From: Desulfobulbaceae bacterium | GTDB lineage: Bacteria > Desulfobacterota > Desulfobulbia > Desulfobulbales > Desulfocapsaceae | DNA: 64,000 nt | Assembly: GCA_031287565.1 (NCBI GenBank) | Contig: JAITSS010000046.1 | Location: forward strand, 124,001-188,000 | Direction: 5' to 3' | In this document: positions 22,513 through 22,586 of the stretch, one piece after another | How positions within the stretch are numbered: the first letter of the stretch is position 1 | Layout: every line of letters starts with the position of its first letter | Position numbers and translations under genes: made by a program | Notes under the pieces: generated by a model | Databases searched by the model: none | Seen by the model: the letters and a program-made list of their open reading frames with translations, nothing else | Told to the model about the DNA's origin: nothing

Positions 22513-22586
22513 CGGTTCCGGCGGCTGATTTGGGCGGCGTTTATATGGAATTGCTGAAGAATCTGCCTAAAAGCGGCAGTAAATAA
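22513..22586 (+). pseudogene. Displaced 3' end of csgG-like gene
   Basis: 55 bp identical to 21192-21246 (CGGTTCCGGCGGCTGATTTGGGCGGCGTTTATATGGAATTGCTGAAGAATCTGCC), continuing in frame to its own TAA (PKSGSK*). Confidence 0.85.

Follow-up and report, generated by a model that had tools for sequence, protein, structure and literature searches.

Within the window analysed here (64,000 nucleotides of a Desulfobulbaceae bacterium, an uncultured relative of sulfate reducers; assembly GCA_031287565.1, contig JAITSS010000046.1, positions 124,001 to 188,000) lies a putative secretion locus in which a CsgG/HfaB-like exporter gene, csgG1, is followed by genes for two secreted cargo proteins, cargo 1 and cargo 2. 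A short exact copy of the 3' end of csgG1 stands between the two cargo genes. From its sequence and position, this tail is best read as the relic of a junction between a csgG1-like gene and cargo 2, comprising a csgG1-type end plus the start of what came after it. We consider it moderately probable that whole units, each made of an exporter tail, a signal peptide, a head and a hydrolase domain, have been recombined and stacked behind the exporter. The locus was compared with relatives represented by one genome per species. Besides the window genome (G000), those named below are G001 and G002 from the same genus, G022 from another genus of the same family, G115 from another family of the same order, and G187, a further relative; the locus of G002 lies on contig DOMU01000057.1, labelled Desulfobulbaceae.

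An earlier note on this DNA had described a 55-bp copy of the csgG-like 3' end, and the match holds for every base: positions 21192-21246 and 22513-22567 are identical at 55/55 nt with a spacing of 1321. This is far beyond chance, as exact repeats in ten Markov-1 random sequences of the window's length and dinucleotide composition reach at most 14-19 nt. The 5' flanks of the two copies are unrelated, with scattered few matches over 40 positions, at chance level. On the 3' side the copies diverge immediately and both run in frame to a stop with the different endings that the note had reported, PGAGGKK in csgG1 and PKSGSK in the tail. Since the same 19 codons in csgG1 of G000 and of its congener G002 share 60% DNA identity, the perfect match reflects a recent common origin rather than conservation. 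The second exporter gene, csgG2, was rejected as the source; its ending differs (RHLPIGAAK...), which leaves the tail as csgG1-type.

csgG1 stops at 21268, the open reading frame of the CHAP cargo spans 21436-22434, the tail occupies 22513-22586 and cargo 2 starts at 22601. The tail does directly precede cargo 2, as had been claimed, with 14 nt from its stop to the ATG, a distance equal to that between csgG and cargo in G022. The scenario that the note had named as fatal to its reading, a third exporter decayed in place, was rejected, as no csgG similarity was found in the 78 nt 5' of the tail (22435-22512). No further displaced tails were found in G002, G022 or G115. The tail lies within a 28-codon frame (22500-22586) that opens with TTG and closes at the stop just described. 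That this frame has been retained as a translational leader coupling into cargo 2 would suit its openness and the distance of its stop from the cargo, which is like that of intact csgG-cargo pairs, but the TTG start is of uncertain quality; we regard such a role as quite improbable, and it would complement rather than replace an origin by recombination. Promoter and terminator counts were at chance level.

Could the repeat be an assembly artefact, in which two strain alleles were fused at a common k-mer? The genome is in multiple contigs, is 86% complete and resembles a metagenome assembly, and 55 is a default k in one common assembler. Contig ends of G000, however, repeatedly overlap one another by exactly 119 nt, with no peak at 55, and the assembly contains no Ns. 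With k=119 and no Ns, 119-mers bridge the 55-bp repeat together with unique flanks on both sides, which rules out a k-mer origin of the repeat and makes an artefact of this kind extremely unlikely.

Table 1. Features of the exporter-cargo locus, in window coordinates.
Feature	Position	Strand	Remark
Displaced exact copy of csgG1 3' end	22513..22567	+	codon 363 second base to codon 381 second base
Alternative csgG ending (KSGSK, stop), allele-specific	22568..22586	+	
Matching 55 bp within intact csgG1	21192..21246	+	
78 nt from the stop of cargo 1 to the tail	22435..22512	+	GC 0.41; ends at putative recombination junction
Cargo 1: signal peptide and head, then a CHAP amidase/peptidase domain at the C-terminus	21436..22434	+	CHAP E=2.4e-11
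Cargo 1 head block with one NxVxGxVxAxxxAxVNIGGL motif	21651..21751	+	91% identical to 22813-22913
Cargo 2: signal peptide and head, then a helical domain without recognised family at the C-terminus	22601..23899	+	C-terminal domain GC 0.36
Cargo 2 head block	22813..22913	+	
csgG1: CsgG/HfaB-like outer-membrane lipoprotein exporter (putative)	20105..21268	+	lipobox Cys21
csgG2: second exporter copy	24699..25904	+	duplication older than G000/G002 split
rep1: secreted, at least 6 NxxxGxVxAxGxxxxxxIGxV repeats, likely fibre subunit	18183..19148	+	
rep2: secreted, at least 2 repeats of rep1 type	19346..20101	+	
p178: secreted, weakly ZraP-like	24069..24605	+	
Lipoprotein with peptidoglycan-binding domain	25891..26613	+	kept with the locus in G002
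Autotransporter-like protein	14569..18072	+	linked to the locus in G000 and G002

The two cargos resemble one another over a limited region. Their heads share a block of 101 nt (91% identical; 5 synonymous and 3 nonsynonymous codon differences) that stops where the C-terminal domains start, while leaders and C-termini are not alike and the first half of the cargo 2 head is unrelated as well. The leader and head of the CHAP cargo resemble those of the single cargo of G002, which ends in an M23 peptidase domain, whereas the leader and first head half of cargo 2 do not. This mismatch suggests that the two units stem from divergent alleles that came to lie side by side, and not from simple duplication of one unit. 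The CHAP domain of cargo 1 aligns with solved CHAP/PcsB structures. The C-terminal domain of cargo 2 has no Pfam match, a sequence search of the PDB reached a best E of 0.1, relatives of the protein were found in its head region and nowhere else, and a single-sequence model was too poor to give its fold (predicted local distance difference test, pLDDT, 39.5). Guanine-plus-cytosine (GC) content drops from head to C-terminus in cargo 1 (0.55 to 0.43), in cargo 2 (0.51 to 0.36) and in the G002 cargo (0.56 to 0.38 in M23). Likewise, GC at third codon positions drops from about 0.6 in the heads to 0.33 (CHAP) and 0.31 (cargo 2) in the C-termini, with csgG1 at 0.72; the C-terminus of cargo 2 ranks in the lowest 0.8% by GC among sampled genome stretches.

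A tandem duplication of csgG1 with its cargo would offer another route to the same arrangement, if the second csgG then lost its first ~360 codons and the C-terminus and upstream parts of the second cargo later diverged or were converted. csgG has indeed been duplicated earlier in this locus (csgG1/csgG2), and 100% identity of the tail fits a recent copy. Yet after a recent duplication the two signal-peptide regions should still be alike, and so should the csgG endings, whereas the endings differ and the leader and first head half are unrelated, next to a head block that is 91% identical. Nor does any csgG remnant lie 5' of the tail. We judge this course of events unlikely; were it true, the conclusion that the cargo is variable would still stand.

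That conclusion is supported by the relatives, in which the slot behind the exporter is polymorphic: it holds CHAP and an unrecognised domain in G000, M23 in G002, a PLA2-like domain in G022 and a lipase in G115, and exchange of cargo at this position thus takes place. Gene order in G002 matches that of G000, with a single cargo in which the same head is joined to the M23 peptidase (E=1.3e-19). In G022, rep1, rep2 and csgG are followed by a head joined to the PLA2-like domain (CNNHDMCYQTCG), which matches PF06951 below cut-off (E=0.0057). In G115, what follows rep2 and csgG is a secreted lipase with a GHSLGG motif, whose Lipase_3 match (E=2.6e-4) falls just short of the cut-off and which has no recognisable head; a TPR/WD40 gene comes next. 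Secreted genes stand directly behind both the PLA2-like cargo (L040 8278-9450) and the lipase cargo (L085 3-797) and are candidate immunity or partner proteins; the first is ATGA-coupled, its ATG overlapping the stop of the cargo, and the second is the TPR/WD40 gene. In G002, the place of p178 is taken by a PIN-domain (VapC-like) toxin gene, preceded by a possible antitoxin frame, with the M23 cargo on one side and csgG2 on the other (L041 5430-6095). In G187, a transposase-like gene, of ISL3 type by eye, sits directly behind csgG near a contig end, where a cargo would be expected (L084 2038-3249). No copy of the locus was found in G001 (87% complete).

The exporters of these loci also belong together. 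A maximum-likelihood tree built from 27 CsgG proteins unites the six exporters found in G000, G002, G022 and G187 with that of G115 in one clade (100/99), although the G115 branch is long and its position less certain. The clade comprises four CsgGs that are followed by a toxin-like gene, two duplicates and the G187 protein, and the split of csgG1 and csgG2 precedes that of G000 and G002. In the order, 17 further CsgG loci have readable downstream genes, and none has a toxin-like cargo; LPP20-like, vWA, OmpA-like or other genes follow instead. A phylum-wide CsgG search over 395 genomes found the toxin-linked clade in G000 and G022 only, other matches scoring like core CsgGs.

A link between cargos and fibre is suggested by the heads. 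Both cargo heads of G000 and those of G002 and G022 contain exactly one fibre-type repeat each. With a profile built from the rep proteins alone, the G022 head outscores each of 1000 shuffles, and a single shuffle outscores cargo 2; the CHAP and M23 heads are not separable from shuffles, and their repeat rests on head homology. The repeat is significant in the G022 head and of marginal significance in the other three. There is also a sub-threshold likeness, a lead only, to the HET-s amyloid repeats (PF11558, HET-s_218-289): three stretches of rep1 of G002 (L041 1251-1718) match at E=9.7e-7 and 29.1 bits against a cut-off of 32.2, and the cargo head of G022 at E=0.017 (L040 7640-7813). No protein of the window itself matches this family, and a search of 97 relatives gave no match with an uninformative control.

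In the scheme that we favour, a repeat fibre made of rep1 and rep2 would be secreted through CsgG/HfaB-like lipoprotein pores, csgG1 and csgG2. csgG1 would be followed by exchangeable effector-like cargos, each with a signal peptide, a one-repeat head and a replaceable, envelope-attacking C-terminal domain. New units of csgG end plus cargo would enter through recombination in the 3' end of csgG1, perhaps through the head block as well, and the previous or an additional unit would be pushed downstream with the 55-bp tail as its scar. The cargos would presumably pass the CsgG-like pore, the single repeat of the head would tie the hydrolase to the secreted fibre, and the cargos may be used against other cells. 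Amidase/peptidase, peptidase, phospholipase and lipase all attack envelopes, which would suit effectors directed against neighbours. The duplication or recombination of exporter-tail-plus-cargo units that the earlier note had proposed is supported in part, by the displaced csgG1-type end joined to a cargo and by the polymorphic slot.

Several observations weigh against this scheme. Because no single-cargo strain of the species was found, one genome per species having been compared, the import and displacement of units is something we infer. No immunity-gene candidate was found between the CHAP cargo and cargo 2, between cargo 2 and p178, or directly after the M23 cargo of G002, and the slot in the window contains no integrase, transposase or direct-repeat target. 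csgG1 matches Pfam CsgG below threshold (E=0.0016, 18.2 bits, cut-off 20.8), and its structural model is of low confidence (pLDDT 58), with a VIA Z of 6.7 that equals unrelated folds. In contact-dependent inhibition (CDI) loci, displaced toxin modules build up downstream and retain homology to the upstream gene over some stretches (PMC4927057), and the orphan cdiA-CT/cdiI modules are alike in carrying such a stretch, in their variable toxin C-termini and in the proposed import and displacement; here, however, the stretch comes from the exporter gene and the displaced gene is complete with a signal peptide, which sets it apart from most CDI/Rhs orphans.

csgG1 is assigned as an exporter on sub-threshold profile matches, a lipobox Cys and a low-confidence model whose top Foldseek matches are to CsgG. 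Besides Pfam CsgG, the HfaB model NF037935 is matched at E=3.4e-5 and 23.2 bits, far below its equivalog cut-off of 300. Foldseek places CsgG chains first (4uv2, E=0.012, prob 0.87), a profile search of the PDB with csgG1 gave no match, and the lipobox Cys21, consistent with a lipoprotein signal, is invariant in 7/7 exporters.

The lack of an immunity gene keeps alive a different use of the cargos, as enzymes (peptidases, amidases, lipases) that are tethered to the surface, have a digestive or wall-remodelling role and serve scavenging or the cell's own envelope; their exchange would reflect diet, and no immunity would be needed. Every recognised domain is a hydrolase, and no immunity genes follow CHAP, cargo 2 or M23, both of which agree with such a use. 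On the other hand, a constant head that bears a replaceable C-terminus of low GC is a polymorphic-toxin pattern, and in G022 and G115 a secreted partner gene lies directly behind the lipid-attacking cargo; on balance an enzymatic role of this kind seems to us rather doubtful. The locus otherwise seems to work like a polymorphic toxin locus, and it has the look of a weapon or tool set with interchangeable parts on a curli-type exporter. By the traits of that class (PMC3482391), it has a constant N-terminal part with an exchangeable C-terminus, the heads being homologous and the C-termini unrelated. Its C-termini are toxin- or effector-like, with CHAP and M23 above cut-off and PLA2 and lipase sub-threshold but bearing motifs found in the Tox-PLA2 and Tox-AB-hydrolase lists, whereas a downstream immunity gene is missing in G000 and G002 and has possible counterparts only in G022 and G115. 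We do not file it as a polymorphic toxin locus, since no immunity gene follows CHAP, cargo 2 or M23 and toxicity is predicted only.

Several secretion routes are known to carry polymorphic toxins. The glycine-zipper CDZ bacteriocins of Caulobacter use type I secretion and are not known to have hydrolase domains. They are alike in concept in that killing is by cell-surface-associated proteins (PMC5380434). The comparison with displaced orphan tips of CDI/Rhs loci, which the earlier note had drawn, holds in part: cargo 2 is not headless but comes with a complete head and a signal peptide, and it has no immunity gene. Unlike CDI systems, the locus has no TpsB/CdiB and no filamentous haemagglutinin-type CdiA among Pfam matches of the nine locus proteins scanned, and YD/Rhs repeats are likewise without a Pfam match in the locus proteins. 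Neisseria MafB toxins require the lipoprotein MafA, which its authors likened to CsgG (PMC7738311, PMC4524018); those islands also share an outer-membrane lipoprotein, adjoining secreted polymorphic toxins and extra downstream modules with the present locus. In contrast, neither cargo here has a Pfam match to the MafB N-terminal domain (DUF1020), their heads carry a fibre repeat, and there is no mafI-like gene. Curli (CsgG) and holdfast HfaABD systems likewise place a CsgG-type lipoprotein exporter beside amyloid-like repeat proteins, but exchangeable hydrolase cargos are not described there (PMC6707917).

The Zhang 2012 survey of polymorphic toxins includes Tox-PLA2 and alpha/beta-hydrolase toxins, and the portions of its text considered here contain no mention of CsgG, curli or amyloid (PMC3482391). 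A literature search for toxin use of the amyloid (CsgG-type) route found no case, the MafA-CsgG comparison being the sole parallel. An armed curli, in which a CsgG-type pore would secrete a HET-s-like beta-repeat fibre carrying exchangeable envelope-attacking effectors via the single head repeat, diversified by stacking units, is a reading that we offer tentatively and with more doubt than belief. If true, it would be an interbacterial weapon class on the amyloid (type VIII-like) route. With a CsgG-like exporter whose hydrolase cargos are exchangeable, effector delivery by functional amyloid fibres would become testable, and the tail scar points to a possible route of cargo gain, by recombination in the exporter 3' end and not only within the effector.

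Among the remaining genes, p178 was considered as an immunity protein; this is less likely, as a 51% identical relative (L055 784-1254) adjoins another CsgG paralogue of G000 on C29, which favours an accessory role beside the exporter; given its weak likeness to ZraP, p178 may be a chaperone that attends fibre subunits in the periplasm. The surroundings of the locus differ in G002: its glycogen synthase neighbour lies on another contig in G000, and the Mpl gene adjoining the locus in G000 lies on another contig in G002. A plasmid search gave one remote match to csgG1 (23% identity, Azospirillum) and none to cargo 2; viral contigs gave none to csgG1, and PADLOC gave no match. Elsewhere in the window, a 96-bp exact repeat (41881-41976 and 43418-43513) starts at the 3' end of a PEP-CTERM gene (40990-41892).
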